This document shows, piece by piece, positions 286-57,831 of a stretch of DNA of 64,000 bases. The stretch's first letter is position 1, and the number at the start of each line of letters is the position of its first letter. The translations under genes and the position numbers were made by a program. Source of the DNA: Vanrija pseudolonga (taxonomy: Eukaryota > Basidiomycota > Tremellomycetes > Trichosporonales > Trichosporonaceae); contig NC_085850.1 in the NCBI RefSeq assembly GCF_020906515.1, forward strand, positions 2,108,001-2,172,000. The letters run 5' to 3'. The notes below the pieces were generated by a model. The model was not told the DNA's origin and did not search any database. It saw nothing but the letters and a program-made list of their open reading frames with translations.

Positions 286-2830
286 CTAGGCAATGCGGCC
301 AACAGAAAGCTCGTGCCTGAGCCACTGGAGGAGAGGGGTGAAAGCGGGAATCAAGTAGCTACTAGCACCTTCCCACTGCTTGTCCTGGACAAGCGCATAG
401 ACTGCCGCTCGGAAGATGTCGGCCTCAGTCTTGTAGTTACCCGGACCATAAGGGCCCCCAATGACCTGTTCGTCAAGCTTGAGCTTGGAGGTAAGGAGAC
501 GGAGCACCGGCAGCCTGACGATGTAGCCAACCAGCCTCTGCACAGGGTCAGCTCGGCTGTACGACCGCCATTGTGCTCACCATCCTTTGCTTTCCAGTGA
601 GTTCGCCAAACGTGTTCACAATCTCCCACACAACCCCCTCGAGGAGCGCGTGTCCAGAGGCTGCAATGTTTGTGAAGGTGGCACTATCACTTCGGGTGCC
701 TTGACCGTTGGGGATGGCGAGGGCGGTCCGCAAAATGGCCGACTCCCCGAAAGCTGGTAGGGGCGGGAAGGCGGCGACGGGGAGGTTGGTGACGACGTGA
801 GTCAGCATGCTTGTCGTGCAGCAGCGGCAGAGGCCACACGGCGCTGCCGTCTTCCAGCCTCCGATCGGCACGGTGGTGGCGTTCTTGCGCATGCGGCGCT
901 TGTGAGGGCAAGTGCACCGCGGGACATTGCAGTCCTCGATGGCAGGCTTAACAGCGATAGCGGGGGCGGCAGGCGGAGCGGTAACGTTCATGGCCTCCTC
1001 TTCATCGTCGAGGGCCTGCCTGGCTCGGCGGGGCCTCTTCTGACGACGGTTCCTCTTGGCGCGGGGTGCTGAGACAGTTAGCTTCATTCTCTCCACTTCC
1101 GTCTGGTACTCACTGAGTTCGTCGCCGGTACGCTTGCCGTTGTCGTTTCGCCTGGCGCCCTCCACTGCCTCGGCGTCGGGTGCCCTCTCTCCCTCTCCCT
1201 CCGCCCCGCCATTCTCAATGACCTCCGCTCCAGGCTCCTCGGGAGCAGCGCCACCCTCACCCTCCCCCGGGGCATTGGCCTCTGCGCCCGCTCCATCGGC
1301 AGGCGGAACGACCTCCTTGTCGCCTTCGGCGGTCGGAAGGGGCTCGGCTGTTGGCTCCGGGGTGACGGTCTTGGCGAGGCGACGACCATCATCACGAATG
1401 TCATCGTCGGCAGTGGAAACGGCGGCGGGCGATTCGCCGGCGAGCTCGACAGCGGCCTCGGAGCCCTCCACGCCGATCTCGGCGGCATTGTCTACCTGGG
1501 GTGCCGTGGTACCGTCAACCTCTTCGCCAGTGAGGCGAGGCGGGGTACCTGTCACAGTTGGTTCACCGGCACCGATCTGGTGGGCCGACGATGCCTCACC
1601 CTGGGCAGGGGGACCAGGGTGGACACTGAGCTCCTCCGTACCTGCCTCCACTCCACCTGGAACCTCGATAGCGCCGTCGTCGGACGGAGCGAGGCGACGC
1701 TCAGAAGTCGCCGGTGACGAGTTGAGCTCCGACAGCCCATCGGTGTCGAGGCGTGTGATGGAAGGCCGGGGAGTAAGGGGTGAAGAAGTGAGCGCCGAGA
1801 GCGGATCACTGCCAGAGTCAATGTCAAGCGACGGGGTGGCGTCGCGAGGGTCGCGGTGGTCGTCGTCGGGGGCGGCAGCGGTGGCGGGGGTGGCGGTGGC
1901 GGTCGGCATCTCGGACTCAGATGCATCTGAGACACCTTCGGCTGCAAGTTCCACAGGCTCAGTGTCGGGGCTGAGCGGGTATGCGGAGCGACCAGTGTTC
2001 ACTTGGGGGAGGTGACGAGGGCCAAACGCGAAACGGCCTTCGTCCTCACTGGCCGTGGGGGCACGAGCCCGCGGGGCATTGTGACTACCCATCGCCGTGG
2101 CGAGGTGGGATGGGCCTGCAGCCATGAAGCCGGCCCAACCGGCGAACGTCTGCGGCTCTCGAGCTACGCTGGCGCTCGAGAAGAGGGGAGGGTGGCTGCC
2201 CTCCATGCTGTCGTCATCGACAGCACCGCCGGTCAGCGTGTCACCACTGGCTGTCGAGAAGAGGGGAGGGCTGCCGCCCTCCATCTTGTCGTCGTCGCCA
2301 GCACCACCAACCAGCGTGCCGCCAAAGTCTGATGGACCACCGGTCGCCGAGCCGAGGTTGAGCGGGCCAGACGGGACCGAGCTGCCCGACCACTCGAGCG
2401 ACTCCTTGCCCTTGCCCTTGACCTTGGCTCCGCTGGCGGGCTTGAAGAGGCTGCCGGGGTTGGACGGGCCAGAAGGGAGCCAGCCAGCTGACCCTCCGAG
2501 CTTCTCCTTGCCCTTGCCTTTACCGGCAGGTGAGAAGAGGCTCCCGACGTTGGACTTTCCAGAACCGACCCAGCCGCCCGACCCTCCGAGCGTCTCCTTG
2601 CCCTTGGATCCGGTGGCCGGCAAGAAGAGGGGAGGGCGGCCGCCCTTCATCTCGTCGTCATCGTCCACACCACTGGCCCGCGTGCCGCCAGAGCCGCCAA
2701 AGCCTGGGTTCTCGGCGGCAAAGGCGTAGCTGCGACCCAGGACGCTGCCGGTGCTGAGCTCGGCCTCCTCGCAGGGCGAAATAGCGCGATGCGGTGGGGT
2801 CAAGCTGAGGTCGGGGTTCTCATCCTTCAC
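286..2830 (-). CDS. RNase III-fold protein with Cys cluster, catalytic residues lost (family copy A)
   Basis: Two exons are visible: 581-2830 (open further upstream; no ATG fixes the start) and 286-537, joined over a 43-nt GTGAGC...CTGAC...CAG intron. The first ~600 residues are low-complexity, acidic and Ser/Pro/Gly rich, with repeated modules of the type DDDxMxGGxPPLF. Next comes the family Cys cluster (C-x-C ... PCGLCRCC), then an RNase III-like region. Where active relatives have LEF-x-GD this copy has AASGH, and the second-half motif reads ADIFRAA, so only one of four metal-binding acids remains. The fold is inferred from alignment with copies B-G in this window. It is likely a non-catalytic paralog that might still dimerise. 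An acidic frame upstream (2827-4008) overlaps the 5' end by a few bases and may be its first exon. Confidence 0.7.
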
Positions 2831-4008
2831 GTACTTCTCGAAGGAGCCAGCGGGGCTTGGTGTGCGGCGCGGAGGGCTGGCGTCACCTGGCGCAGTGCTG
2901 ACGAGGGGGCTTGGCCCAATCGTGATGTAGGGCGAGGTACTGCTGCTGGCGATGCTGTTGTCGTATACCCGCCGAATAGAACACTGCCGCTGCCAGCCGC
3001 ATCCGCTCCGACGATGGCACTCCTACTGCTGGCCGGCGGCGGGGCGTACGCAAAGCCCGTGGTTGGCGTGCCTCCGCTGATGTTGCTCCGACCAGCCCAA
3101 GAAAGGCGAGGGCGCGTGTCGGGGAGTGCGGCGACCACGTCAGGATCAACGAGAGCGCCGATACGCATCATGTCCCGCCCACCGGACCGGCTGTCGGAGC
3201 GAGCGGATGGCGCAGATGCACCCTCTGCCGCCGCAAGGCGCTCGTGCCGCGGAGGCGCGATGTACGACCCAAAGGCGCGCGTCTGGCTGGGGCGGGTTGC
3301 AGGGGCGGGCGGGTGGACTGGGGCGGGCTGCGGCGGGGTGGGTGCACGGTGGCGCGCAAGCGGCTTGACGGCGTCGTCTTCGTCGTCCTCGTTGTCGTCG
3401 AGGTCGACTACGCTGTTGCAACCCATGGTGTCGCGGAAGCCAGCGAATGCGTGGCCCCGGTTGCCGGCGCGAGCCTCGGCCAGATTGAACATCGCCCGCG
3501 GGGCGGCCGGCACCTCACTGCGGTTGCTGCTGCGGGGGATGCGGTGGTTCGAGGCGCCGGGGGTGGTGCTGGCGGTGTGAACCCTTCCCTGGCCGTGTGC
3601 GGCGTTGACGTCACGGGTGTGTGACTCGACCTCCGCCTCGTCAAGCTCGTCGTCGTCGAGCTCGTCCTCCTCCTCCGCGCTCTGCGCGTCCTCCTCATCC
3701 TCGCTCTGCTCGTTCTCCTTGTCGTCCGTCTCGTCGAGCTCGTCAAGCTCGTCGTCGGTCTCGTCGATCTGGTCGTCCTCCTTGTCGGTCGCGTCTTCCT
3801 CCTCGTCGAGCCTGTCGTCGCCGTGAATTGCCTGGCCGGTGCCATGGTTGCCCCCGCTTGTGGTGGCGTCGTGGCCAATGTCGTCGTCGGAGTCTGCGAC
3901 GTCGCTGTAGGCTGGTAGGGCAATGTACTCATCAGCGGGGGTAGGAGAGCCGGTGGTGTTGGCTGTGTGTGCCCAGGAGGGCCGCTGAGCCGTTGGTGGC
4001 CGGCTCAT
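2827..4008 (-). CDS. acidic low-complexity open frame, probable 5' exon of copy A
   Basis: A 393-codon frame starting MSRPPTAQRP and ending where copy A's frame begins, in a different phase. It is dominated by Asp/Glu blocks (roughly residues 65-130) followed by Pro/Ala/Arg-rich sequence, with strong G/C in third positions, and no recognisable domain. I could not find one convincing intron that joins it to the 581-2830 frame. It could be the N-terminus of copy A (giving a protein above 1,100 residues) or a separate intrinsically disordered protein. Other family members also carry long disordered N-termini, which favours the first option. RNA reads across 2.7-3.0 kb would settle it. Confidence 0.45.
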   Translation of the reverse strand: MSRPPTAQRPSWAHTANTTGSPTPADEYIALPAYSDVADSDDDIGHDATTSGGNHGTGQAIHGDDRLDEEEDATDKEDDQIDETDDELDELDETDDKENEQSEDEEDAQSAEEEDELDDDELDEAEVESHTRDVNAAHGQGRVHTASTTPGASNHRIPRSSNRSEVPAAPRAMFNLAEARAGNRGHAFAGFRDTMGCNSVVDLDDNEDDEDDAVKPLARHRAPTPPQPAPVHPPAPATRPSQTRAFGSYIAPPRHERLAAAEGASAPSARSDSRSGGRDMMRIGALVDPDVVAALPDTRPRLSWAGRSNISGGTPTTGFAYAPPPASSRSAIVGADAAGSGSVLFGGYTTTASPAAVPRPTSRLGQAPSSALRQVTPALRAAHQAPLAPSRST

Positions 4009-4897
4009 GCTGGGTGGTTGGTCGACGGTGGTGGGTGGAACGTTTGTGAAAGTGAGTTGTGTGCGAGGCCATTGTCATGGGGCGGGCGGGCGAACGGGAT
4101 CAGAGTGCAGAGGTTGACGGAGCAGGCCAATGTGCAGGTTGGGGATGGCAGGGATGATGGCGCGTGTGTGTGTGTGTGCGGCGTGTGTGCGGCGTGTGTG
4201 CGGCGTGTGTGCGGCGTGTGTGCGGCGTGTGGATGGTGGGGACGGCGGCGTCGGAGTGGATGATGGTGAACCCTGGTGCGGAGGTGCGAACGAGGCACCG
4301 CCACAAGCCGATCCATCCTTGGCGCCACGAGCCTCCCTTGCTGGGTTTCGCGCGCAGTGCTACTTTGTTGTGCACACACTAGTTATGGCCGTGTTCAGCG
4401 TCACTCACCTATGCATTTTATTCTCCAAGTTGATGCATGGCAGCCCGCCTCTGCCCCATGGCGCGGCCCAGTCGAGCTTCCCACTTGAGCGACTGGCGCG
4501 TGTGTGACGCCACCAACACACACGCCGAATGCTCCGAGTCCAGGGGCTCGTTCTGCAGGTTAGTGAGGGCGCGGCGCAGAGCAGTGTTGTGTGCAAGCAT
4601 CCATCGTGCAGGGTCGTGGACGTCGTGACGGAGGACTCGACGCTCAGCACGCCGTGCCGAGGGTGGGTGCGAATTTATGCCTCATTGTGGAGATCACGTG
4701 ATCTTTTACGTAACACTTTCCCCCCTATCGGTTACCCCCGACTATGACATCAGTGTGTTGTGGTTGCTCATGTGACCCGACCAGGTCGTGTGCCCCGTGA
4801 CCTGCATCGACTGCATCGACGCGACGTCGACCCATACCATGTTGACCTCGATACAGCTAGATGGGATGATTGTTGACATTAGCCAGTGAACCGCGTA
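4009..4897. other. divergent promoter region with a GTGTGCGGC-type minisatellite
   Basis: No supported gene. The stretch separates the minus-strand copy A locus from the plus-strand oxygenase gene, so it should hold both promoters. At about 4164-4233 an 11-bp unit (GTGTGTGCGGC) is repeated five or more times behind a short TG run. Confidence 0.6.
4164..4233. repeat. 11-bp tandem repeat
   Basis: About five nearly perfect copies of GTGTGTGCGGC preceded by (TG)n, lying 150-230 bp upstream of the 4008 ATG on the minus strand. A simple-sequence minisatellite in a promoter-proximal position. Confidence 0.85.
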
Positions 4898-6628: not shown

Positions 6629-8151
6629 TCAGGCGGGGGGTGGTTTGGGAGGGGCGCGGGCCCATAGGTTGCCTTTGTGAATCTCCTCCAAGATCCAATA
6701 ACAGATCGGCCGGAGCATGTCCTTGATGAAAATCATTGCGGCATGGGGATGATACTCTTCCCAGCAGGCAGCAATGCGTGCCTCAAAGAGATCTGCCTTG
6801 ATCTTCGTCCTGTCGTGGTCCGGTCTCGAGTTCAAGGCGGGTTGAATCTTGACCTTTTTATCCAGCCGCAGGTGCTCGGCTATTTTAGCCAGAGTCGAGT
6901 TTCGACACACGAGCGTCACAATCGTCTGGTCTATGAGCTTCTGGTTTTAATGTACGTTGTCCTCGACTCACATGACGCTCTCTGGGCGATGCCTCAAAGC
7001 CCCCCACCAGCTCCTTTGCGGCAGCCTCGAGGTAGCCATCACCTTTGAACTCCAGGAGCTCATATGATTTGTGGTAAAGGACTCCTGAAGACAGGTGCAG
7101 AAGGGACTGATCCTCGAGTGTGGATTTCCTGATCGCTGGAGGAGACGGGATACAGTCGTACGGAGCGAAAAGCTTGACATGATCGGCCATGTAGTTACCG
7201 CAGCACTGGCAGTCTCCGCATGGGGTCTTAGAAGAATGGCGTTTCCGTCTGGCAAGGTCGAAACAGCATGGGGTGGTGGGACATTTGGGCCAGAAATCAC
7301 GGTCTGGTTTAGATAGGGCATCAACGGCGTAGTTGAGCGCCTTCACCTCATCTTGGAGTTTGTTTGCCCTGATTGACCTGTCAGCACTGCCAGAAGAGCT
7401 GAAGTTGTCGCTCACCTGCTGGACTCCGACAAAACCCTTTCCTTGGCCTCGGCCAGTTCGGACTGGGTGCTGGATAGCTCCTTCTGAATGTTCGTAGACT
7501 TTGCTTCCTCCTCCGCAAGCCGACTGAGATTAACAGCGCAGCCGTTAGCATCAGATAGTTGGGTTCCATGAGAGCAAGAGTGGATGCGTTCGCTGAAGGT
7601 CGGCAAATTTACAGCGAGACACAGCCTCACGCTCACCGAAGGAGTTCATCGTTTGTGGCCTTGCTCTCCTTTTCGAGGCTGTCGATCCTGGGTGTCACGC
7701 GGAAGGTTAGTCAAGTGAGTTGGAGGTGAAATCATGATCACACACTGCCTCAACAAATCCGACCTCTCCTCACGAACCTTCTTGGCGGCGGGTGTTTCAG
7801 GCTCTTCGCTTACACATTAAGTTGTTAGAACACTACGGCGGCCTCAGTCTACAAGTACCCACTGTAACTCGATCGTGTGCGTTTATGAGCGGGGCCTGTA
7901 CGCGGGCTCTTTGGGTCATCGCCGACCGAAGGACCTCCCGGGTGGACGGCACTGGATCCTTTCTCTTCCTCGTGGGCTGCTGGTGCGGCCCCGGGGTGGG
8001 GAGTTGGCGAGGTGGAACCGGCCAGACGGCCCCGCCGCAGGCGGGTTGGGGTGGTGGGGGTCGTGGGGGGTGGTCGGCGCCGAGGGGAGCGGTGTGGGGC
8101 GGGAATGGGGGAATCGCTCGCGCTATGTGTTGAGGATGATGGAGCACTCAT
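6629..8151 (-). CDS. RNase III-domain protein with coiled coil and Cys cluster (family copy B)
   Basis: Six exons (minus strand order 7859-8151, 7746-7808, 7637-7687, 7416-7523, 6972-7377, 6629-6940) give 410 aa with every phase matching; the start is an ATG (MSAPSSS). Residues 1-95 are Ser/Pro/Arg rich and disordered; about 100-190 form a heptad-like coiled coil (ESKATNDELL, QKELSSTQSELAEA). The Cys cluster spans ~204-231 (CPTTPCC ... PCGDCQCC). The RNase III domain follows: LLEFKGDGYLE supplies Glu281 and Asp285, and ADLFEARIAA supplies Asp357 and Glu360, so all four metal ligands are present. No dsRNA-binding domain is seen. The last intron is only 31 nt. Closest to copies C and F in this window. 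By family knowledge it should cleave double-stranded RNA as a dimer; its biological substrate is unknown. Confidence 0.85.
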
Positions 8152-9364: not shown

Positions 9365-10783
9365 TCATTTCGGAGTCCACTCGCGGCTCCAAAGATTGCC
9401 TTTCTCCAGCTCGTCCTTCATCCAAAGGCAGATAGGTGTGATGACTCTAACGGTAAAGTTGAGGCCTTCTTTTACGTCTTTGGCCTCCCAGTACGCTGCA
9501 ATGAAAGCTTCAAAGACGTCGCCGTAGATCTTTGTCCATTGATGAGAAGTGGGGTGCTCGTTGGGATGGATCCTGATCTTCTCGTGAAGGCCGAACTGAA
9601 TGGTAATCTGTGCGATGGTCGAGTTGCGAGCCATGAGCGTTACGATAGTCTTGGTGGTTAGTCCCCCTTCCCAAGGGTTTGTAACTCACGTGTTTGGCAC
9701 TCGCCCCGATTTGCCATGGTCCAACGAGATGCTTGGCCGCTGCCTCGAGATATCCGTCCCCAATGAACTCGAGAGCCTCGTAGGAAGCTTTGTAGCCGCC
9801 GACCGTGCGGTGCGTAAGGGTTTTCCTGAGGACCCCTTTGGGCAACTGGGGCAGCTTGTACGTGATGTTCTTGAAGGGAGCATTTTCGACGACATACACA
9901 GCCATGTAGTGCCCACAGCACTGGCAGTCGCCGCATGGGCGGACCTTCTTTCCCGATGGTTGCTCTTGCGGCTTACGAAGTTCTACGCAAGGGCATTTGT
10001 CGGGGCAAGCCGGCCAGAACCGCCGAGTCTGCTCCTTTGTGCTCTCAAGCTTGTCTTGTAGCTCCTCAACATCGGACTCGAGAGCATGGATCCTTGAGCA
10101 CGGTTTAGCACAGATAAAATCATCTGTTCCTTTGGGCTCACCTCTCGGCGAGCCTCTGCGCCAACGTGGCATGTTCACACTCCTCGGCTACATGCTCGTC
10201 GTGGTCATGGTCGTCGTGGTCTTGCTCATCGTGGTCTTGCTCATCGAAGTCTTGCTCGTCGTCGTCATGCTCGTAGTATGCGTCCGCCAGGACACCGGCA
10301 GGAGCCTCAGCCTCTGCATCTTCGACAGGCGTGCCGTTGCTTTGCAAGTCAGTTGTGACGTCGGTAGCCATATAGGTGAAGCTCACGGCTGCAGATCCCC
10401 TTCCCCAAGCCCTTCAAGCTGAGGCTTCTGGCTAACCGGTTCAAAGAAGGTCCTTACATCCAGCCGGCGGTGGCTGCTGAGGGTAGCACCTTCTTTGTGC
10501 GTTTCGAGATCGGCCTCCTCTCTAGGGCGATTGAGCCTTGCCTCCTCTCTAAGTAATTCGAGGTCTGACTCCTTGTTAAGCCTTTCGAGGATCTCGATAC
10601 TGTGTGCAGTTGGTTAGAGATGTACATGTGGCTCTTCCAACGAGAAGCCTGTCAGACTCACTAGCGCTTGGCCGACCGGATCGTCATGGTTCTGCTCGGA
10701 AGCCGAGGAGGCCTCGGACGAGGTGGCAGGGCCTGCGGTTCATTGCCGTCTTCCTGAGGTTCGTCTATGGTCAGCGCAAGCAT
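9365..10783 (-). CDS. RNase III-domain protein with coiled coil and Cys cluster (family copy C)
   Basis: Five exons (10662-10783, 10387-10599, 10142-10339, 9690-10092, 9365-9649) give 406 aa from the first usable ATG (MLALTIDEPQ); the frame is open upstream, so an extra 5' exon is possible. Residues ~42-90 are a charged coiled coil. About 132-160 is a striking Asp/His/Glu/Gln tract (DDDEQDFDEQDHDEQ). A second short coil precedes the Cys cluster at 207-237 (CPDKCPC ... PCGDCQCC). RNase III motifs are complete: LTHRTVG, ALEFIGDGYLE with Glu286 and Asp290, and GDVFEAFIAAYW with Asp356 and Glu359. The intron before the second half (CAC|GTGAGT ... GACTAACCACCAAG) is at the same codon as in B and F. 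Predicted active dsRNA endonuclease; role unknown. Confidence 0.85.
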
Positions 10784-11586
10784 AGTCACGCCTGGAATCA
10801 CATGAGGCTGGGGAGTGAGAGCGCTGGAAGACCTGCGCGGAGGCCTCCCCTTCCTGGCGGTGGGCGGGGAATCGCGATACAAACGGCGTAGCCAACGGGT
10901 TGAGGAGAGACGCGGGCTCGGAGGCGAAAAGTGCAGCCATGGGTGTGAAGTGAGGAGGGTGGTAGGGTTAGAGGGGAGTTGGTGGTGAGGATCATGAGTG
11001 ACAAAGGCGTAGGAAATGGAGCCATGGTTCTCATGTTATAGCTGGGGATGACGGGGTGAGGAAGCGAGGGCATGGGGCAGCGACAATAGCACGCCAAACG
11101 GCACCGTGCGGCGTGGAGGTGATATCCAGTGCATTGCACAGTGACGATTCGTTGTTGATGGCTTCGTAGACGGATAACGGTAAGCTCGTCATGCGGCCGT
11201 GTCTACTATTTATGCGGTGCTCCGTGGTTCTCTCGAGATCAGTGCACCCGTCCGTCCGTCTGTGGTTGAGGCCGGCGGTGGGGTGTGGCGTGAGCTTGGC
11301 TTCTGTGGCGCGCCGTGCGTGGGGCAAGGAAGCCAATCACACGGGGTACTGTATGGGGGGAAAAGTGAATCCTACCTCGGGCATCTCTCGCCTCTCGCCG
11401 TGTCCTTCTGGCTGATGATACGATTGATGAACGAACAACAAGGCTGGGGAGGGTCTGCCACGGCGTACCACGTTCGGGCATCAGCTTTCCCGAAATGAGG
11501 GGCCCCACCAGTAAACAAACACCCACTCGACGACAAGGCTTTGATCACACCCATCGCGCGAGCACTTCGGCACCAACCCTCACACC
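10784..11586. other. intergenic between divergent genes
   Basis: Upstream regions of copy C (minus) and the first F-box-like gene (plus). Several ATGs with short open frames occur between 10783 and 10940 and might belong to an undetected first exon of copy C. Nothing else is supported. Confidence 0.5.
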
Positions 11587-12719
11587 ATGCTCGACCGCAC
11601 GGCCTACCCGCACCTCTTCGATCTCATCTTCGAGCAAGCACCGCCGCGGGCACTGCTCCAGCTTCGGCGCGTCTCCCGCGAGGTGCAGGCGCTCGCGGAT
11701 GAGCGGCTGTTCCGACACGTCGTCGTGCGCGCGGCCGACGCGGAGCTCACACCGGACACGCTCGTCTCGCTCCGCAGCGCAGACGGCAGTGCCCTCCCCC
11801 TCCCACAGCGCAACATGGCGTGGTGGGATGGCGCGAGCGACCCCGACGAAGAACAGGAAGAGGAGCTCGAGGTCATCGCCTTGCAGCTGACGCGGGTACG
11901 CGTGCTCGACGTAAGCGGGATCATACCCCACGTGTTCACGCGGCGGTTCGACGCCATGCTCGAGCCGCTCGGCACCGACACGCAACGACGCATCACGCGC
12001 GCCCTCCCCTCCGACGACGGGACGGCCATGGAGCTGCGCTACCCTGCGTCTCACATCCTCGTCAAGTTCGCCGCGGTCCACGCGCCGAGGCCGGTCCGCG
12101 CGCCGGGAACAGGCGAAGAACTGTACTACAACAGGATGATCTCATTCAGGCTGCTACAGAAGGGAACCGACACGGTGGTGCAACACTTCAGGCTTGTCAA
12201 TCTGGACACGGTGGCGCAACCCCACCAGCCCGATTTCGACGCGGAGCCGGGGCTGCGATTCACTCGCGCCGACCCCACCCCCGCTTGTGTTACATTGTGT
12301 TGGACCGTTCGGGTTTGGGCAGGAAACAGCTCGACTATTCCTCCATCTTCTGGTTGGGCTTTGCCTACGTGGTAACACAACGGGTACGCCAGGGAGGCAA
12401 GTGTGTCTTCGTCGGTTTCGACGAGGGGAACGACAAGCCCAGCGCCGCTGTGCAATCCTGGCAATCGGAGATCATCTCCAATATCCGACGGGCAGCGCAT
12501 TTTCCACCAAACTCCGAACAGGCCCATCGCCTGGTCAAGTTTATGAGCCGCTCTCAGTTCGAAAGTCTCTGGAGCGCCGAGGAGCTGCTCGCCATCATGC
12601 CTCCGCGACCGAGCGACAGTGGGACCGCCGGGCTACCCAACGTATCTCCTGCCGAGACAGCCTCCACGGCTACAGGATCATCTGTGCCCCTGCCCAACTC
12701 GACCACAGCCCCAACCTAG
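11587..12719 (+). pseudogene. F-box-like protein, paralog 1, single-base frameshift
   Basis: Begins MLDRTAYPHLFDLI and continues with an F-box-like helix set ending ALADERLFRHVVV (residues 1-48), the same opening as the 12870 gene and similar to the 15.6-16.9 kb gene. The first frame runs to about 12285, where homology to paralog 2 moves to another frame (YIVLDRSGLG ... LGFAYVVTQRV) that ends at 12719. The switch lies at a run of five C (12278-12282) and equals the loss of one base. No intron signals fit there. F-box proteins normally recruit substrates to SCF ubiquitin ligases through Skp1, but the rest of this protein matches no domain I know. Either a recent pseudogene or a sequence error in a homopolymer. 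Confidence 0.65.
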
Positions 12720-12869
12720 AATGTAGAATGCATCATGCCCCGGCGTGGTTGGAAGCAGCAGGACCGGAGAGCGCCGGACTCGTGACGCCGCGGGGCCCCG
12801 GCGACGGGCCGTCTTGACTTTGTTCGCCCTATCCGCCCCGTTCGCATTTCTCCATCGCCCTCAACGATC

Positions 12870-13966
12870 ATGCTCGACCGCACGGCATTCCCGCACATCT
12901 TCGACCTCGTCCTGCGGCACGCGCCGACGCCGTCGCTGATCCGCCTGCGCCTCGTCTCGCGCGAGGTGCGCGCGCTAGCTGACGAGCGACTGTTCCGGCA
13001 CGTGGTCGTCGGCGGCGCGGCGGCAACGGCGACCGCTGGGCGGCGATCAACCCCGTCTTCTCTCTCTGTGCGGCAGCAGACGGCGAGCCGCTGCCCCTCC
13101 CGCAGCGCCCGACGCGGTGGTGGGACTGCGCTGAGGAGCCGGACGCCGAGCAGGAGGCGGAGCTCGCCGTCGTCGCGACCCAGCTAGCGCGCACGCGCGT
13201 GCTCGACGTCGCTGGCGCCGTGCCCGTGTCGTTTACGCGCTGGTTCCACCGCCTCATCGGGCCGCGGGGCACCTTCAAGACGAACCGCATCACGCGCGTC
13301 TTCAACCACAATGACCTCACCGACGACCCGGACACCTGGCCCGCCCGACCGACACCAGACCCCCTCTCCGACGTCCTCGTGAGGTATTCCTCGCCCGTTG
13401 CCCACACCATCCGCCGCGGCCTGGGCGGCCTGTCGTCCCTTTCTAGAGTTTCTAGAGATGGCCACCACAAGGTGGTGCACCACGTCAGACTGCGCGACAT
13501 CAAGCTCGGCCAAGGCGCCTACATGGCTCGTGACACCGCCTTATTCGGGGCATCCGCGTACTACGTCGTGTTTGAGGAGGACCTGGGCGCTGGCGAGGTG
13601 CAGGAGCTGCTCGAGGAAGGCAACATTTCGAAACAGCTGGTTACGTTCACCGTAGGACTGGCACGCCGCGTCCGTTGCGGCAAATCCGTCGTGCTTGTTG
13701 GCTTGACTAGCACGCAGAGGAGGCCTCATAAGGCGCCCAGAGTCACGACGAAACACTCCCCTGGCGAGCTCCTCGCCGGATACATAATGGAGAAGCTTTG
13801 CTCGCTGTTACGAGATGGCCCGGACAAGATACACAGCCGCGTCCAGTTCACCAGCCATGCCGAGTTCTGCAGCCTCTTCAGCGAGGACGACCGGCGGATC
13901 ATCATGGCCCCACGCCCGCCAGCTGCCGATCCGGAAACACCCGCCCCCGCCCCCGCCTCGCCCTAG
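12870..13966 (+). pseudogene. F-box-like protein, paralog 2, single-base frameshift
   Basis: Starts MLDRTAFPHIFDLVL and shares the RLVSREVRALADERLFRHVVV block with paralog 1 150 bp upstream, so the two are a tandem duplicate. Around 13015-13025, in a GC-rich GGCGGC stretch, the frame must slip by one base: the downstream frame restores residues equivalent to paralog 1 (PLPLPQRPTRWWD, TRVLDVAG) and then stays open to the stop at 13966. The intact length would be about 365 aa. The C-terminal half contains a conserved strand pattern (GASAYYVVFEED, CGKSVVLVG) seen in paralog 1 but no known domain. Same interpretation: decaying duplicate or assembly indel. Confidence 0.65.
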
Positions 13967-14034
13967 ATTCAAGATGCATATGCTGATGATACTGTTGTTG
14001 TTGAATACCCAAAAGACCGAGACCGCCCCCCGCC

Positions 14035-15135
14035 CTAGGCGTACGCGCCGCCGCTCATGTTCTCGCCGGCCGCCTTGGCCTTGAGCAGCAGGTCGGCGTG
14101 GTGGCGCTCCGAGACGTCGGGGTGCGCACGGAGCCTGCTCTTGATCTGGTTTTCGCCATACGTCGGGTAGATTGCGTTTGTGGGGTCACGGGTCACGCCG
14201 CGCGCCTTGGCCTGCAGCTCGGGCGGGAGGTTGACGAGCGGGATCTTGGCGTCGAGCGCGGGATTGAAGAAGAAGGGGAGCGAGAGGCGGTCGCGGCCGT
14301 TCGGGGGCGCGACGACGCGGTGGCGCGTCGCCTTGAGGTAGCCTTGCGTGGCGTACTCGAGCATCTCGCCAATGTTGACCACGAACGCGCCCTCGACGGG
14401 CGGCGCGTCGACCCACACGCCGCCGCTGCCGTCGGCCTCCTCTTCCCCAAGCTGGACCTGGAGGCCGTCGGCGCCCGGCTCGACCCAGAGCAGGGTCACG
14501 AACGCCGCGTCCTTGTGCGCGCCGACACCCTGTGCGCGCGCGGCACTCTCGTCCGTCGCGCCGGGGTAGCGCACGATCTTGAGCAGCGGGAACGACTCGC
14601 CCCAGCACTGCGTGAAGTAGTCTTCTGGCTGGCCGAGGGCGACGCTCCACGCCGAGAGGAGCTTGAACGCCACGGTGGTGAGGTGCGCGATCCACTCCTC
14701 CGCCGCGGGGCGGAGCGACGGCAGCGCCGACGGCCACTGGTTCGGGCCGAGCAGGCGCAGGTGGGGCGGCGCGCCGGCCGCCTCGCGCGCTGGTGCCTCC
14801 GCGTCCGTGTTGGGTCCCTCGGGGCCAATGTCGATCTGTTCCCGCCAGTCGACGGCGCCCTTGGTCCGCTCGCCCCCGAGGCGCGTGTACCCGCGGAACT
14901 GGGCCGAGTTGATGCTTTCAATCTCGAGCTTGGCCGCGTCCGGGAGCGCGAAGAACTCGCGCGCAAGCGCGGGCAGGCGCGCCTCTAGCTCGGGCGCAAG
15001 GCCCGTGTTGGTCAAGTAGAAGAAGCCGTACGCGTGCGTCGCGTGCGCGAGGTCCTTGATGAAGGCTGTACGCTGCGCCTCGCCGGCGTCCAGGTCGGCG
15101 AGGGAGAGCACGGGGAGGCTGGTCGGGAGGGCCAT
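14035..15135 (-). CDS. 2-oxoglutarate/Fe(II)-dependent oxygenase, isopenicillin-N-synthase-like
   Basis: A single-exon 366-aa gene with the classic layout of this family. The N-terminal DIOX_N part includes HAYGFFYLTNTGL and REFFALP. The C-terminal double-stranded beta helix has iron ligands His207 and Asp209 (GAHKDAAFVTLL) and His272 (ATRHRV), and the 2-oxoglutarate-binding RLS at Arg283/Ser285. Fungal members act in secondary metabolism or detoxify small molecules; the substrate cannot be predicted from sequence. It sits inside the group of F-box-like paralogs, transcribed away from a 435-bp spacer. Length and motifs look intact. Confidence 0.9.
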   Translation of the reverse strand: MALPTSLPVLSLADLDAGEAQRTAFIKDLAHATHAYGFFYLTNTGLAPELEARLPALAREFFALPDAAKLEIESINSAQFRGYTRLGGERTKGAVDWREQIDIGPEGPNTDAEAPAREAAGAPPHLRLLGPNQWPSALPSLRPAAEEWIAHLTTVAFKLLSAWSVALGQPEDYFTQCWGESFPLLKIVRYPGATDESAARAQGVGAHKDAAFVTLLWVEPGADGLQVQLGEEEADGSGGVWVDAPPVEGAFVVNIGEMLEYATQGYLKATRHRVVAPPNGRDRLSLPFFFNPALDAKIPLVNLPPELQAKARGVTRDPTNAIYPTYGENQIKSRLRAHPDVSERHHADLLLKAKAAGENMSGGAYA

Positions 15136-15570
15136 GGTGATGGGGTGGGGGTTGGGAGATGTTGAGATCTGCCCAGAGTGTTGAATTGTGGTTGAGAGGG
15201 GGTGGTGTTGCTACGACGTGGGGCTTATATCCTCGTTAGTGAGTTTTCTCGCTGAGAAATCTTTGGCGCCTTGGCCAGGGAGACGTTGTTGTTGTGAGTA
15301 ATGTGCAAGAGTAAGCGTGCATGACAAGAAAGAGAGAGAGCGCGGAGACGCCGCGGAGGTCGAGGTGCTGCTTGCTAAGTACGACGAGGGCTTGGCGGGT
15401 ATATCCGGCCAGACCGGCGCCGACCTCCGGACAATCTCCAATCGGCAACGACGTGGGCGGCTGCACGCGAGCAGATGGTGTGCTCGATACAATGCATAGG
15501 GACATGGTCACAGGGTACTCTACAAGGGACAGGCAGCAGCCGAGCCGAGGCTGCAGGTGGCGTACATAGG
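15136..15570. other. intergenic spacer
   Basis: Promoter of the minus-strand oxygenase and 3' flank of the third F-box-like gene. No gene or repeat seen. Confidence 0.5.
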
Positions 15571-40533: not shown

Positions 40534-41371
40534 TGTGAGGTGGGTGAGTGAGAGGAGAAATGCCGCACGACGTCGATGTTGGCGGCGGCGAGTAGCAGGC
40601 CCACCGCGAGTCCGACTAGCGGCGGTGTCCTTGTCGGTAACTTCGCCTGGCGGGAGACCGGCTGATGGAAAGGCGGCCACGTGGAGTCGTTAATCAATCA
40701 TCCCTGTTAACCGCGTGACGGTCACGTGCAGTGGGTCTGTGTATAACTCGCTTGGCAGACGGCGTCGATCCGTCAAGAGGCGGACCTCCATGTTGCCGTT
40801 GGCGGTTTCTTGCCGACAACAACTGATCACATGCTGGTGCATTTATCGACTCAGTCGGACGCCGAGGCGCCGAGAGCTGCGCTCGGCCGTCCGACAAGCC
40901 CCAGACTCCGACTCGGCTCTCGTCGGATCTCTCCAGCAGCCGCGTAACGAGGCAAACACCACACAACTCTCGCACCCCGCCGTCCACTCGCGTCCACATG
41001 CATCCCGCAATCCGTCGGCCGGATATCTGTTGCGCTCTGCTCGCCCCCACTGGCCTCGATATGGTCGAATCACGCCTTGCGCGTTGGACTGTTGTGCGGA
41101 GATCGACAGTGCACAAGGCGCGACGGGATCCGGCCACCGGCGCCGAGTGGCCATATCGGGTTTGGCCCGCTGAAATGACGCGATGGCGATTTGGACGAAG
41201 GACCCACTCCGACAAGAACCGCTCACACCTACAAGAGCCGACAGCAGCAACGGGCCCACCCCGACTGACCTGCATCGCAGCATCTCCACTGTCCCATTTC
41301 AAGCGAACATTGTGAGTCTTGTGCACTACTGTAGCACTATCACTAACAGGAGCCAGCCCAAGCCCACCGCC
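40534..41371. promoter_or_regulatory. promoter and leader of the Cys/Met-metabolism gene
   Basis: Divergent interval. A 38-nt intron with GTGAGT at 41312, a CACTAAC branch and CAG at 41349 lies in the likely 5' leader, 22 nt before the ATG at 41372. No coding gene is seen. Confidence 0.5.
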
Positions 41372-42586
41372 ATGCCCAGCATCCCGACCCACGCTATCGC
41401 GACCCGCGTCCTGCACGGCGACGACGTGCAGTCCGCCGCCGAGCGGGCGTTCCACCCCGTCGTGCCCCCCATCTACTGGAGCGCGACCTTTGCTGCCGAG
41501 GACGCCGAGACGTTTGCAGGCATGTCGGCCGACCCCCGCCACCCGGCCGTCTACACGCGCCACGCGAACCCGACGCACGAGCGCGTGCAGCGCATCATGG
41601 CCGACCTCGAGGGCACCGAGGACGCGCTCCTCACGGCGTCGGGCATGGGCGCCATCTCGACCAGCATCCTCGCGCTCGTCAAGAAGGGAGACCATGTGAT
41701 CGCGCAGACGCGCCACTACATGGCTGCGTCGCGCCTGTTTGCCGACGTCCTCCCCAGCTACGGCGTCGACGTGTCGATCGTCGAGCAGACCGACCTCGCA
41801 AACTTTGAGAAGGAGATCAGGCCCAACACGGTGCTGATCTACATCGAGACGCCCGCAAACCCGACCATTGTGCTCACCGACATTGTCGGCGTCGTCGAGC
41901 TGGCCAGGAAGCACTCGACGCCCAACAACCGCATCCTCACGGTTGCCGACAACACGTTCGCTGGCCCAGTCAACACGCGCCCGGCTGTCGACGGCGTCGA
42001 CGTGGTCGTGCACTCGGCGACCAAGTCGCTCGGCGGCCACCACGACCTGACGGCTGGAGTGATCTGCACGTCCAAGGAGCTGGCGACCAAGATCCACCTG
42101 ATGCACACGATCCTCGGGTCGGTCGCGTCGCCGATGGACGCGTGGCTGCTCCTCCGCGGCATCCGCACGCTTACGCTGCGTATCGACAAGATCAACAGCA
42201 ACGCGCTCGCCATCGCCGAGTTCCTCGAGAAGCAGCCCAAGGTCGAGAAGGTCTACTACCCCTTGCTCAAGAGCCACCCGCAGCACGAGCTCGCCAAGCG
42301 CCAGATGAAGGGCGGCGGACCTGTGATTGCGTTCGCAGTCAAGGGCGACTACAAGGCGACGGCCGAGTTTGTCGCCCAGCTCAAGCTCATCGTGCACGCC
42401 GTCAGCCTGGGCGGCATCGACTCGCTCATCGTGCACACGGCGACCATGTGGCGCAGCACCATGACCGAGCAGCAGATGGAGGAGGCGGGCATCGCCGTCA
42501 ACTTTGTCCGCTTCTCCGTCGGAGTCGAGGACGTCGAGGACTTGAAGGCGGATCTGACGCAGGCGCTGGCCACTGTGCCAAACTAG
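41372..42586 (+). CDS. Cys/Met-metabolism PLP-dependent enzyme (cystathionine/methionine gamma-lyase type)
   Basis: Single coding exon, 404 aa. A fold-type I PLP enzyme of the Cys_Met_Meta_PP family: the substrate-side YTRHANPT motif (61-68), GMGAISTSILAL (91-102) around the cofactor phosphate, VADNTFAGP with Asp193 pairing the pyridine nitrogen, and the Schiff-base lysine Lys218 in SATKSLGGHHD. The C-terminal RFSVGVEDVEDLKADL helix is standard. Family members include cystathionine gamma-lyase, cystathionine beta-lyase and methionine gamma-lyase; motifs here do not separate them cleanly, though the GHHD and Tyr-containing QTRHYMAAS loop suit a lyase. The start MPSIPTHAIATRVLHGDD is normal for the family. 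Confidence 0.9.
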   Translation: MPSIPTHAIATRVLHGDDVQSAAERAFHPVVPPIYWSATFAAEDAETFAGMSADPRHPAVYTRHANPTHERVQRIMADLEGTEDALLTASGMGAISTSILALVKKGDHVIAQTRHYMAASRLFADVLPSYGVDVSIVEQTDLANFEKEIRPNTVLIYIETPANPTIVLTDIVGVVELARKHSTPNNRILTVADNTFAGPVNTRPAVDGVDVVVHSATKSLGGHHDLTAGVICTSKELATKIHLMHTILGSVASPMDAWLLLRGIRTLTLRIDKINSNALAIAEFLEKQPKVEKVYYPLLKSHPQHELAKRQMKGGGPVIAFAVKGDYKATAEFVAQLKLIVHAVSLGGIDSLIVHTATMWRSTMTEQQMEEAGIAVNFVRFSVGVEDVEDLKADLTQALATVPN

Positions 42587-49030: not shown

Positions 49031-50455
49031 CTAGTGCTTGCCGCCGCGCTTCTTGCCCTTCTTGGGCTTGGTCGTCGCGGCAGCAGCGGCGTCGGCGTCG
49101 GCCTTGGCCTTGGCGTACGCCTCCTCGGCGCTGGCGGTGGACGCGGCGGCTTTCTCGAGCGCGATAGCGGCCGCGGCGGCCTCGGCGTCGTCCGACGCTT
49201 TGGCCGCTTCGAGGTCGAGGGTCGCGTGGTGCGTGTGCTCGGCCACAGCGACAGCCTCCACCACCTCGTCGACCTTGACCTCCTCCTCGGCGGCAGCGAC
49301 CACCTCGGCGGCCTTGGCCTCCTCGTATGCGGCCGCGGCGGCGTCTGCGCTCGCCTGCGCCGCGGCGTACGCCTGCTCCGCGCTCACCGTCTCCTCGGCT
49401 GCCTTGTCGAGCGCCCGCGCGGCGGCCTCAGCGTCCGCGACAGCATCGACGACCGCATACCCCTCCAGCTCGCTCTCGGTCGGCGGGCCCTCAAACGTCT
49501 CGCGCGCGATGCGCCAGTACCGCTCCGGGTCTGCCTTCATGTGCGCCACGTGGGCCGACTTGCCAAAGTTCTCCCGGCGCACCGTGAACCCGAGGGCCTC
49601 GGCCTCGCGCGCGTGCGCCTCCACGTCGGCGGCGTGGATGAGCTTGTCGGCGTCGCTGTAGATGTATGCTCTGCGGACCTCGGACGCGCGCGCGATCGGC
49701 GTGTTGTGGCTTGCTGCTGCGGTGCGCAGGGGCCCGCCGGGCCCGCCGAACACGCGCGAGATGTTCTGCCGCAGCCAGAACCACGCGACCATGGCGTGCA
49801 GGAACGGCGAGAGGATGCGCCTCAGCCATGGGGGGAAGGACAGGGCGAAGGCGGTGAATGTTGACCGGTAGTGGAACTGGCCTGGCGTAGAGTCCAGCAC
49901 GAGCGAGTACCGCGGGAGCGTGACCTGCGCCTTCTTGAGGACACCGCGCAGCGCCGCGAGCGCCGAGCCGCCGCCGTTCGACCATACGTGGATGAGAAGC
50001 TCTGCGCGCGGCGCACGCGGCGGGGGCTTGACGAGCACCCCGCTGATCTCGCTGTCGGCAATGTCCGAGGTGGAGACGCTGCTGCTGATGCTGCTTGCGT
50101 CCGTCTCGTCCTGCGGCGCGGGGACGACGCCGCCGACCGCGAGCTCGGGGAACGCATCGCGCAGCACGGGGATGATGCGCGCAAACTGGCGGTTGCGCTC
50201 CGTCCGCCGGCCGGGCACCATAAAGTCGGACAGCTCGGTGCGGATCACGACGATCGGCGAGGCGGGGTACGCGATGCGGTAGGGCGTGAGGTACTTTGCG
50301 ATGTGGACGTCCTGCGCGCCCATCCATGTCGCGAGGAGGATGAGCCGTGGATGCTTGCTGGACGCTTTGGCGGCGACGGCATCGGGCTTGTACAGGTAGA
50401 CGCTGCGCGAGAGCCGCGATAGGAAGCCGAGCGGGTGTGGTGGTGTTGTTGTCAT
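49031..50455 (-). CDS. DUF829 / TMEM53 (PaxU-like) protein with Ala-rich tail
   Basis: Single exon, 474 aa. Residues ~35-325 follow the DUF829 (TMEM53/PaxU) plan: HPRLILLATWMGAQ, HIAKYLTPYR, ELLIHVWSNGGGSALAAL (the oxyanion-like SNGGG motif), LVLDSTPGQFHYRS, then AYIYSDADKLIHAADV and ENFGKSAHVAHMKADPERYW (acid and histidine of an alpha/beta-hydrolase-type site). Human TMEM53 is a nuclear-envelope protein and fungal PaxU lies in an indole-diterpene cluster; catalytic activity is unproven. The last ~140 residues are an Ala/Glu/Asp-rich repeat helix (AAAIALEKAAASTASAEEAY) ending in a Lys-rich KKGKKRGGKH, which is unusual for the family. Confidence 0.82.
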   Translation of the reverse strand: MTTTPPHPLGFLSRLSRSVYLYKPDAVAAKASSKHPRLILLATWMGAQDVHIAKYLTPYRIAYPASPIVVIRTELSDFMVPGRRTERNRQFARIIPVLRDAFPELAVGGVVPAPQDETDASSISSSVSTSDIADSEISGVLVKPPPRAPRAELLIHVWSNGGGSALAALRGVLKKAQVTLPRYSLVLDSTPGQFHYRSTFTAFALSFPPWLRRILSPFLHAMVAWFWLRQNISRVFGGPGGPLRTAAASHNTPIARASEVRRAYIYSDADKLIHAADVEAHAREAEALGFTVRRENFGKSAHVAHMKADPERYWRIARETFEGPPTESELEGYAVVDAVADAEAAARALDKAAEETVSAEQAYAAAQASADAAAAAYEEAKAAEVVAAAEEEVKVDEVVEAVAVAEHTHHATLDLEAAKASDDAEAAAAAIALEKAAASTASAEEAYAKAKADADAAAAATTKPKKGKKRGGKH

Positions 50456-50884
50456 TTGTTTGGGGGTGTGATTGTAGTAGCACTGAAGGAGTGTGATGGA
50501 GTGGGATGAAGAGTAAAGTCGAGTAGTCTTTGCATGTCGTCGGCGTTGGTGTCCATGTCGTTGCCGGTGACAGACATGGAGCGCTGGGTGGTGCGTCTCT
50601 CGGGCATCGTCATTTCTCGGCCGCCGTCTCCGTTTTGTATGAACCGCTTACGAACGCCAAGCAGAGCCGACAATGACGGAACCAACCCACCCACCCCCGC
50701 ACGCGACAAGCGACCTCCATGACGGAGCCCCTGCATTCATTCGATCCATGCACACGCCTCGCGGCGGCGGCGTGAGCAAGCCGCGGAATGCAGATGCGCT
50801 GCACGCCGTCGAGCGACCACGGTAGCGAGGCCTCGACCGCTGTGCCCAATAACAACCAAATCACATCCCTGCAGCCTTGCAGCC
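50456..50884. other. intergenic spacer
   Basis: Promoter of the DUF829 gene and 3' flank of the DJ-1-like gene. No gene is supported. Confidence 0.5.
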
Positions 50885-52209: not shown

Positions 52210-52422
52210 CCATCACTCACAATAACAAAACATTGATCCCTCAAGGTGTCCCAGAGACTCACTGGTCGGACCTTGAGGCGGGCCGGTGTGGACTGCCCCT
52301 GGCCGAGTGTCGAATGTCGAATGTCGAGGAGGGCTGCAGTCCACGTTCCGGGTCGAACGCCCGTCGCAACTTGGTGGCAGGCCGAAGTCGAACATTTACG
52401 CACACTGCCACTGCGCGAAATC
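52210..52422. repeat. direct repeat, copy 1 (~215 bp)
   Basis: Runs from CATCACTCACAATA through AAAACATTGATCCCTCAAGG and GAACGCCCGTCGCAACTTGG to GCGCGAAATC. About 75-80% identical by eye to 52863-53082 in the same orientation. On the minus strand it contains TGTTCGAC...GGCGTTCGACCC, reminiscent of the B-box repeats near 29 kb. Confidence 0.75.
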
Positions 52423-52862: not shown

Positions 52863-53082
52863 CCATCACTCACAATAGCAAAACATTGATCCCTCAAGGG
52901 TCCCAGAGATTCTCTGGTCGAGCCTTGAGGCGGGTCGGGCTGGACTGGCCCCTGATCGGATGCCGGAGTCGAGTGTCGAAAGTCGCAGGGGGGTACAGTC
53001 CAGTCTCCGAGTCGAACGCCCGTCGCAACTTGGTAGCAGGCCGATGTCGAACATATACGAACCATGCTACTGCCGCGAAATC
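52863..53082. repeat. direct repeat, copy 2 (~220 bp)
   Basis: Same landmarks in the same order as copy 1: CATCACTCACAATAGCAAAA, TTGATCCCTCAAGGGTCCCA, GAACGCCCGTCGCAACTTGG, CGCGAAATC. The copies are ~430 bp apart and no open frame is conserved between them. Confidence 0.75.
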
Positions 53083-53464: not shown

Positions 53465-54675
53465 TCATTGGCGGTTGCGCCGACCGCGGGGCTGGTGGGT
53501 CCACAGCCTGCCCGCGCGGATCTCGTCGAAAATCCAACTGCAAATGGGCCGGATCATGTTCTTAATGATCTCGAGGCCGTGCTCGGGACCATATTCCTTC
53601 CAGTACGCAGCCGCTAGCGCCTCGCAGACATCGCCCTCAATCTTGGTCATCTCGAAATCGGTGGGCCGAACCCGGAGGTCGATGTCTCGGTCCAACCCGT
53701 AATGACGGGTGATCCTTGCGAGGGTGGTATTGCGGCCCATAAGCTCCACAACCGTCTTGGTCGTCAGCATATGCTGCAAAGTGACGTTGTACTTACGTGT
53801 CGCTCATAGTTATTCGCATCCCGCCATTCGCTCGTGACCTCAATAGCGGCGATCTTGATATATTCGTCGCCAGCGTACTCGAGTAGCTCATACGAATGGG
53901 CCTTGTCTCGGGTGGCCGAGGAATGGGTGAGGACCTTGTCGAGGAGCCAGCCCTTACGCACTCGGACACGCCTCCCGATCTCTTGGAAAGGAGCATTGTA
54001 CGCCACATGGGCTCCCATGAACTCGCTGCAGCACTTACAATCGCCACACGGCAGCCGACCGCCCTGTCCAGCTCGGCGAGCACGCTGAAGACTGTAGCAA
54101 GGACAGTGGCGGTCGCATGGAATCCAGAACGGCTCTGGGCTCTCTGCACAGGCGTTGGCGCTGCAGGGACTCAACATGTCTTCGAGCCTGCTGTGAAGAG
54201 ATTCCGCCCTGGTTGGACAGTCAGCATCAATGAACTGGACTCGGGAAGAATTACTAGACTTAGGAAGCATTACTACTCACTTTTCAACCGCAGTGGCCAA
54301 TCTCTCGCGGGTAGCCGCATGCTCCTTCTTTGACTCTACGAGGTCCTTCTGAACAGCAGCGAGCTGTTCCTCCGTAGTCGACAGCTTTGTCTTTACTGCG
54401 GCAAGCTTGGCCTTGGCTAGCTTGTGCCGAGCTGCGAACAGTTGGGCCTTGGATTCGGCGAGAGTCTTCTCGGTGCTCTCCAGCTTGTCACGAGTGGCGA
54501 TGAGGTCGGCCTCGACTTGGGTGAGCCTGCTTTGGGTAGACACCACATCGTTCTGAGGTGAAGTGAGGTCGCCATTGCCCGTGACAAGTGTACTCTTGAT
54601 CAGGAGCAGCTCCTGCTGAGTTTCTCCGAGTTCGACCTCGGCGCGCGTGAGCTTATTGTCGGTGACAGCCAGCAT
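53465..54675 (-). CDS. RNase III-domain protein with long coiled coil and Cys cluster (family copy F)
   Basis: Three exons (54281-54675 and upstream, 53797-54208, 53465-53755) give 365 aa from the first in-frame ATG (MLAVTDNKLTRAEVEL). The frame is open upstream to 54834, so the true start may be further 5'. Residues ~1-135 are one long coiled coil with near-perfect heptads (LIATRDKLESTEKTL, LSTTEEQLAAVQKDL). The Cys cluster reads CDRHCPC ... PCGDCKCC. The RNase III domain has LTHSSAT, LLEYAGDEY with Glu242 and Asp246, and GDVCEALAAAYW with Asp311 and Glu314; all four acids are present. The last intron lies at the same codon as in B and C (ERH|). Closest relatives here are B and C, more than 40 kb away. 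Confidence 0.82.
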
Positions 54676-56034: not shown

Positions 56035-57831
56035 ATGTCGACCTCGAATCATCAAGGGGTCCAGAACGCACCACCCGCGCCGTCCGTCGAGCACTCGGAC
56101 GGCAGAAATGGCGCGTCTTTCGTTCTCGACGCAGCTTCAGTAGCGAGCTTTGCTGGACTCACAGGCGTAAAGCCCGCGGACATCGAGACCCCCGACGGCA
56201 CAATCTCCGCGGTTGACGGGCATTCCCAAGAGGTGGATACCTCGCTCGAGAATAAAGACTCGACAGACATGGAGGGCGCGTGGGGTCAAGTCGCCCAATG
56301 GGGCTCTGCACAGTCCAAGAAGGCTCTCCGGCGAGCGCAGAGAAAGGGTAAAAAGTCGCGTCGCAGGGAGCTTATGAAGTACAACCTCCTCCGCGTCCCA
56401 GGTGTCAAGGCTAGCGGCAGTGTGCAGCATTCACCGGCTACTGCCGGTGAGGCCGGTCAACTGTCGCCTCCTCAAGCGTTTACCTTTGGCACTGAGGCTA
56501 CCTTTGGTTTCGCACCCTCCTTGGGCTTCAGTGCTTTCGTTGGATTCGGTCGCCCTCCTGCCGCTCTACCAGAGACCACACTCGGCCAAGCTGGGAGCTT
56601 AGAAGGCGGAACAGTTGCCCCGCAAGGTGCGCGATAAGCCTGTCGCAAGTAGGCTGACATATGGTCCAGATGGTTCAGCTGCACTTGAGGGGTCTGAAGC
56701 TCCAGTCCGACGAGAGACTGAGCTCGAGATGTGGAAGCGGATGTGAGTGCCGGTGAGGCAGACCAGCCTCGCGTATTGAGCCAACTATGCAGTGATTGCG
56801 AGCAACAAAGCAAGATTGGCCAGCTTGAGACCCGAGTCAAAGTTCAGCGCACAATCAACGAGAAGCTTCAGAAGGAGTGAGTGCGGGCTTGGAGTCTGCA
56901 GAAACAGCAGTACTAAGGAGTTGATCAGACGAAATCTCTTGCGTGCAGAGTACGTGGTGGTATGCGTGGGACAGAGCCCCTCCTGACCCCCCTCCAGCGT
57001 GAACAAGTTCAAAGCAGTGTGGAGCAAGGCCTCGCCGCGGTACTCCATCGAAACCGCGCTGGTCGACATGACCCAGTGCAAGGGCAGGATGCTGCGGAAG
57101 CGGATGGCGCCTGCCAAGGGCGAGGACCCCGAGCTGACGGACTGCACGGACGGATCGTGCCGGTGCGTCGCGTCGCGCCGCGACCGCGCCCAGGCCCCCA
57201 TCCGTGGCGTCAACAACTGGGCCTCACCTCCCCCCTGCGGGCACTGCGACTGCTGCAACGACGCCATGGTGCCGCACGTGGCGGCCAACCTCCCGGTGCA
57301 CCTCGTGCCGCAGCTGCCCGAGTCGATGGGCGCCCCGGAGATCCAGCACGAAGTCCAGCTCGCGCGCACGCACCCGACGTTCGTCGCCGACCTGGTCGAC
57401 TCGTACAAGGACCTCGAGCACGTGGGCGACAGTGTTGTCGAACTGTCGGTGCGCGTCATGATGATCATGGCTGCGGACTCGTGTCTGCCCCGGGGGTACT
57501 ATCGATCGGTGAGTCGCCTACTGTAGTTGGACGAGTATCGTGGTCTGGCAGCTAAAGGCCCACCCACTAGCGACTCAAGAGGTGGTGCGTCGCTAACAGC
57601 ACGCTCGCCCTGCTGTCGAAGCACTGGGACCTGATTGACCGCGTCCGCATCGACCCCGAGACGAGGAACGAGATCGACGAGACCAAGCTCAGGGGCGACC
57701 TGGCCGAGTCTCACATTGGCGTCATGTTCAAGACGCACGGGTGGGACGCGACGAGCGCGTTCCTCCGCGACGTGTACACGCCCATCATCGACTTTCTCGT
57801 CGAGGAGATGGACGCGCAGCGCCTGGCGTGA
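56035..57831 (+). CDS. RNase III-domain protein with Cys cluster (family copy G)
   Basis: Six exons: 56035-56626, 56670-56742, 56793-56876, 56929-56949 (21 nt), 56998-57508 and 57571-57831; 513 aa. The N-terminal ~200 residues are disordered, with a basic patch (SKKALRRAQRKGKKSRRREL) and a Phe/Gly-rich stretch; a short coiled coil (QLETRVKVQRTINEKLQKE) follows. The Cys cluster spans ~306-343 (CTDGSCRC ... PCGHCDCC). RNase III motifs: KDLEHVGDSVVE with Glu397 and Asp401, and GDLAESHIGVMF with Asp470 and Glu473. The usual Phe of LEF is His, but the acids are intact. The C-terminal half resembles copy E (GWDATSAFL, FLVEEM). The codon bias of the last two exons is much stronger than that of the first. 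Confidence 0.83.

Follow-up and report, generated by a model that had tools for sequence, protein, structure and literature searches.

A clustered family of RNase III-fold proteins carrying a cysteine module in the yeast-like fungus Vanrija pseudolonga

A cluster of seven genes, here called G1 to G7, lies at C2:2108001-2172000 in the 24.87-Mb, nine-contig genome of Vanrija pseudolonga (Trichosporonaceae, Tremellomycetes); this 64,000-nucleotide stretch was analysed whole and is referred to below as the window. The genes encode proteins in which a cysteine (Cys) module precedes a single RNase III domain, and we refer to them as the Cys-RIII family. Profile searches and structural models support the conclusion that the seven constitute one family with an RNase III fold. 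On balance, and with modest confidence, we favour the reading that Cys-RIII proteins are dimeric endonucleases acting on double-stranded RNA (dsRNA), with a division of labour in some form between active and dead members.

Spliced models of the seven genes were built by hand from three-frame translations, with hand-chosen splice sites, and are as follows.

G1, 286-4008, minus strand: long N-terminus, acidic/disordered, followed by a basic stretch, the Cys module and an RNase III domain that is degenerate (pseudoenzyme)
G2, 6629-8151, minus strand: coiled coil, Cys module and RNase III domain, with YELLEFKGD / ADLFEA intact; six exons
G3, 9365-10371, minus strand: acidic N-terminus, coiled coil, Cys module, intact RNase III domain
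G4, 27176-28880, plus strand: disordered N-terminus, Cys module, intact RNase III domain; seven exons, the last intron GC-AG and 37 nucleotides long
G5, 31315-33015, plus strand: Pro/Ser-rich N-terminus, coiled coil, Cys module, in-frame TGA, RNase III domain with intact motifs
G5 stop, 32485-32487, plus strand: TGA in frame, separating the Cys module from the RNase III domain
G6, 53465-54675, minus strand: long coiled coil, Cys module and RNase III domain, with YELLEYAGD / GDVCEA intact
G7, 56035-57831, plus strand: N-terminus disordered and bearing a basic cluster, then coiled coil, Cys module and an RNase III domain with YKDLEHVGD / GDLAES

A first-pass annotation of the window had described seven loci of common architecture, and the spliced models, together with the profile searches reported below, confirm this, with the qualification that the frame of G5 is interrupted by the TGA; in the other six models Cys module and RNase III domain share one frame. 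Introns range from 26 to 121 nucleotides and are GT-AG throughout, save for the one GC-AG intron in G4. With the splice sites so chosen, a phase-0 intron separates the two catalytic motifs in every one of the seven models, lying upstream of the helix that precedes RN-x-TLA. Two 5' ends are uncertain. In G1 the last exon and the open frame that encodes the Cys module, together spanning 286 to about 2942, are secure, and extension to about 4008 needs a doubtful 26-nucleotide intron; the start of G3 may be 10371 or lie further up, as far as 10783. The public model LOC62_02G002573 (P0004, V. pseudolonga, 166 residues; 9368-9890) matches the 166-residue tail of our G3 model at every position, and the last intron of G3 is thus independently confirmed. 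The public model begins after the Cys module and so omits the most conserved part of G3; because that module is conserved in P0003, a likely orthologue described below, we argue that the start in the public model lies too far downstream. Splicing around the G5 stop is not claimed, as each of the four in-frame GT-AG pairs available on paper would delete conserved residues; the interrupted G5 may be in decay or yield a truncated product. The GC content of G2 to G6 is 0.55-0.60, against 0.62 for the window; G1 (0.66) and G7 (0.62) are unremarkable. Low-GC islands (0.54-0.59 per 2 kb) occur at 6-10, 28-38, 46-48 and 52-56 kb. A 106-nucleotide direct repeat (83%; 52309-52414 and 52968-53073) adjoins the 3' end of G6.

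Chance open reading frames (ORFs) are ruled out as the source of the family by leave-one-out searches, in which a profile built from six members was run against all window ORFs of at least 35 residues, the stop of G5 being written as X. The omitted gene was recovered every time (best exon E 4e-16 to 4e-26, second piece 5e-10 or better), against E 0.34 for the best non-family ORF. Profiles of the Cys module alone recovered the left-out member at E 2e-8 to 3e-14, against 0.13 for the best non-family ORF. Those of the RNase III domain alone recovered each gene by its best exon (E 6e-11 to 2e-27, against 2.0 for the best non-family ORF); they missed the first half of G1 and reached the first half of G7 at only E 0.03. 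Copies carried by transposons were also rejected, since the window's repeats of 45 nucleotides or more do not fit: some are low-complexity or fall within G1, and the others comprise a tandem ORF pair, a pair next to G6, the Cys exon and an inverted pair. The seven paralogues share 20-44% identity. In a tree of 13 RNase III rows (G5 as the piece after its stop; the Dicer row joined by eye from two exons, with part of the domain missing), G1 to G7 fall together on one side of a branch with support 73/74, and G2, G3 and G6 form a group with support 100/99; the tree does not settle where the family belongs among other RNase III groups.

The Cys modules of the seven members are listed below, with the number of residues separating the two halves.

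G1 module, 818-931, minus strand: CNVPRCTC - 23 - CGLCRCC
G2 module, 7200-7283, minus strand: CPTTPCC - 14 - CGDCQCC
G3 module, 9915-10007, minus strand: CPDKCPC - 17 - CGDCQCC
G4 module, 28208-28309, plus strand: CRDGTCRC - 19 - CGKCFCC
G5 module, 32359-32469, plus strand: CQRGRCPC - 22 - CGGCTCC
G6 module, 54028-54117, minus strand: CDRHCPC - 16 - CGDCKCC
G7 module, 57143-57256, plus strand: CTDGSCRC - 23 - CGHCDCC

The pattern originally proposed was C-x3-4-C-x-C, a gap of 15-24 residues, and CGxCxCC. The second half holds in all seven members and the first in six, G2 (CPTTPCC) deviating, and the gap is 14-23 residues. Across nine module sequences the invariant positions are C ... C ... CG-x-C-x-CC, that is, six Cys and one Gly. 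A Pfam scan of these nine sequences found no zinc finger and gave two chance matches, each confined to a single member (E 0.16 and 0.47), and a search of PDB sequences yielded no match to the module at E <= 10. Fungal Zn2Cys6 clusters have the spacing C-x2-C-x6-C, from which the module differs. We infer that the module probably binds metal. No published description of a Cys-module RNase III family was found in the open-access literature, and Cys-RIII adds an RNase III architecture whose Cys module is matched in no library searched.

Pfam models PF14622 and/or PF00636 match G2, G3, G4, G6, G7 and the downstream ORF of G5; the G7 matches (E 6e-7 and 7e-4) both lie under the curated cut-offs, and G1, scanned as a 625-residue model, gave no RNase III match at E <= 1. 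The RNase III fold expected from the first-pass annotation is supported by structure prediction: two AlphaFold models, of G1 and G3, each from an alignment of seven sequences, and structure alignment with VIA-align agree with it for the RNase III parts (model residues 94-239 and 125-269). Even the dead G1 is predicted to retain this fold. The G3 model also has a 37-residue helix, and G2 and G6 gave weak coiled-coil Pfam matches. Each protein has one RNase III domain, stops directly after it and has no Dicer-type RNA-binding or helicase Pfam match. The absence of a dsRNA-binding domain (dsRBD), noted at first pass, was upheld, as seven scans (G1 as the 625-residue model, G5 as its downstream ORF only) gave no Pfam match at E <= 1. 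Since none was detected, the RNase III domain, the basic stretches and the Cys module must between them provide substrate binding.

The catalytic acidic residues, which we take to be E38, E41, D45, D114 and E117 in E. coli numbering (E-x2-E-x3-D ... D-x2-E), are all kept in G2, G3, G4 and G6; G5 keeps them too, beyond its TGA. G7 has Lys in place of the first Glu and is otherwise nearly complete, and the motifs of G1 are degenerate, with the second-motif Asp alone retained. An RNase III signature had been attributed to all seven loci; it stands for G2 to G6, in G5 only after the stop, is altered in G7 and is missing from G1. Seven active copies are rejected, as G1 is dead and G5 interrupted. 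Judging from their sequences, G2, G3, G4 and G6 should cut base-paired RNA.

Genome searches queried with G6 and with segments of G7, G4 and G1 found family members only inside the window; because these searches score only the best candidates, there are at least seven. Outside the window, an RNase III gene on contig C5 matched at E 1.5e-5, and all else was chance matches at E 0.15 or worse. Pfam recognises five further RNase III loci: Dicer (L074, at C2:2.023 Mb, with a Dicer dimerisation domain), L071, L073, L072 (C5) and L070 (C1). We take L071 and L073, the latter with a sub-threshold mL44 match, for the mitochondrial type. L072 and L070 have YEKLEHVGD, but Ala or Ser, respectively, for the second-motif Asp (AALFEA, ASIFEA), and on this evidence may be inactive or altered; complete motifs among the RNase III loci found are confined to Dicer and the Cys-RIII family. 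L070 has the phase-0 intron in common with the family, which hints at a common source. By family profile, the Cys module is absent from the 8.0-9.5 kb around each of the five loci. A genome-wide DNA pattern for CGxCxCC matched 69 times (five in the family) against 80 in a reversed control; it barred x codons with T as second base and so misses G1, G4 and possibly others. Ten of the 64 non-family places (L075-L084, picked by eye as not CTG-repeat-like) and L070 showed nothing module-like by eye, and on these loci the family profile gave one marginal match (L082, E 0.053) with strong composition bias.

Beyond this genome, three protein searches (at least 8000, 1365 and 2183 candidates), which required shared five-letter words and similar lengths, returned among the matches listed only P0004 (G3), P0001, P0003 and P0002, the last a bacterial-type RNase III (E 1.1e-3). 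The same searches missed the public models of the six other V. pseudolonga genes, so that restriction holds only within their reach. Viral contigs searched with G3 and prokaryote contigs searched with P0003 contained no relative. As far as seen, the sequences point to a lineage-restricted family. Likely orthologues in a second genome are P0001 for G1 (52% identity) and P0003 for G3 (57%), each on a 16,830-base contig, very probably the same one. As both genes have such counterparts, at least the duplication that separated G1 from G3 preceded the divergence of the two genomes; P0001 has AAAVGH at the first-motif position, so the loss of that motif from G1 is probably older than the split as well. 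The Cys module is the best-conserved part between likely orthologues, dead G1 included: 32/46 residues are identical between G1 and P0001 against 16/42 in the covered RNase III part, and 30/37 between G3 and P0003 against 27/48. A rapid, lineage-specific expansion had been suggested at first pass; the restriction stands within the reach of the searches, but 'rapid' in the sense of recent does not, given identities of 20-44% and the G1 and G3 orthologues.

RNase III domains function as dimers, and those of Cys-RIII would each dimerise in the known way. We propose that in the Vanrija lineage the Cys module and coiled coil replace the dsRBD of other RNase III enzymes and would together select partner and RNA, the coiled coil being the natural partner selector. 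G1, a conserved dead member, would serve as regulatory or specificity partner in heterodimers, by analogy with the kinetoplastid editosome; metal binding, dimer partners, nuclear location, dsRNA cleavage and substrates are the parts of this scheme that we infer. Several points weigh against it. Only two of the seven members have likely orthologues, each spanning just the Cys-module exon and the first half of the domain; the Cys module is predicted with low confidence (predicted local distance difference test, pLDDT, about 55-75); both AlphaFold models come from only seven aligned sequences, those for G1 including active members; family monophyly from the RNase III domain alone is weak; and the support consists of sequence and models.

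The editosome proteins KREN1-3 and KREPB4-10 combine a zinc finger with a single RNase III domain and form active/dead heterodimers (PMC12936278). The Cys-RIII module was first thought new to RNase III groups; it has no Pfam or PDB match, but these editosome proteins do carry a zinc finger. Like them, Cys-RIII comprises several paralogues that join a small module, here rich in Cys, to a single RNase III domain, and has both active and dead members. The editosome finger is U1-like and accompanied by RAM, whereas Cys-RIII has CxxxCxC...CGxCxCC without a Pfam finger match, and editosome proteins serve a mitochondrial RNA-editing complex. That a fungus independently evolved an editosome-like modular system, in which coiled coils and a new Cys (metal) module, in place of dsRBDs, pair several active subunits with a conserved dead one, is a tentative analogy that we think unlikely to hold in full; if it did, chosen structured RNAs could be cut on one strand or at specific sites. 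An RNase III pseudoenzyme is maintained alongside active sisters in a fungus, and the locus is compact and deletable, suited to asking whether mixed active/dead RNase III dimers arose repeatedly.

It is similarly doubtful that the family took over the housekeeping role of Rnt1/Pac1-type enzymes in pre-rRNA and small nuclear RNA processing, with the Cys module substituting for the dsRBD. The Ser/Ala substitutions in L070 and L072, which leave Cys-RIII alone besides Dicer with complete motifs among the loci found, speak for such a takeover, but housekeeping enzymes are rarely multi-copy and so diverged (20-44% identity), and a C-terminal dsRBD like that of Rnt1 was not detected. From Rnt1, Pac1, L070 and L072, Cys-RIII differs in this respect and in its added Cys module and coiled coil.

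RNA defence, the role suggested at first pass, is improbable in our judgement; here a diversified set of nucleases would target mycoviruses, RNA from transposons or selfish RNA of other kinds, and perhaps feed RNA interference (RNAi). The paralogues are clustered and divergent, and the genome retains RNAi genes, with Piwi-domain matches at two places and RNA-dependent RNA polymerase matches at three; no positional or sequence link between these and the cluster was seen, however, and the duplications are old, at least G1 and G3 having likely one-to-one counterparts in the second genome rather than showing turnover. A precedent is R3B2, a Mucorales-specific RNase III family in RNA silencing, with two dsRBDs and a non-canonical signature (PMC4395119). 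Cys-RIII resembles it as a lineage-specific fungal single-RNase III family with several paralogues, but no dsRBD was detected in it, four of its members keep every catalytic residue, and it carries the Cys module.

A decaying tandem family without present function is very unlikely: the G5 stop, the lost active site of G1 and the GC content of 0.55-0.60 in five of the seven genes against 0.62 for the window would suit it, but in five of the seven the spliced frame is open and the motifs are intact or nearly so, and the Cys module, even that of dead G1, is conserved in another genome.

Other RNase III-fold proteins are more distant in make-up. The mitochondrial ribosome has mL44 and mL57, and the mitochondrial-type loci L071 and L073 are, unlike Cys-RIII, without a Cys module. 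Budding-yeast Dcr1 has dsRBDs; it and Dicer have the RNase III fold in common with Cys-RIII and differ in domain sets. Dicers have two RNase III domains plus further domains (PMC12663654), and that Dicer survey, which demanded both RNase III domains, would overlook Cys-RIII.

Linkage of the cluster to the mating type was rejected, since the STE3 match sits on C1 and the cluster on C2. Elsewhere in the window, two similar tandem ORFs (11586-13966, plus strand) include repeats of 146 and 134 nucleotides (78% and 71%); they are F-box-like by eye, with no Pfam match in the two stretches scanned. An open frame at 36992-37573, within a low-GC island, encodes an amphipathic helical protein with weak, sub-cut-off apolipoprotein-type Pfam matches. 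Neighbouring genes encode a 2-oxoglutarate-Fe(II) (2OG-Fe(II)) oxygenase (14038-15210, minus strand), a Cys/Met metabolism pyridoxal-phosphate (PLP) enzyme (41174-42583, plus strand) and a DUF829 protein (49034-50647, minus strand).
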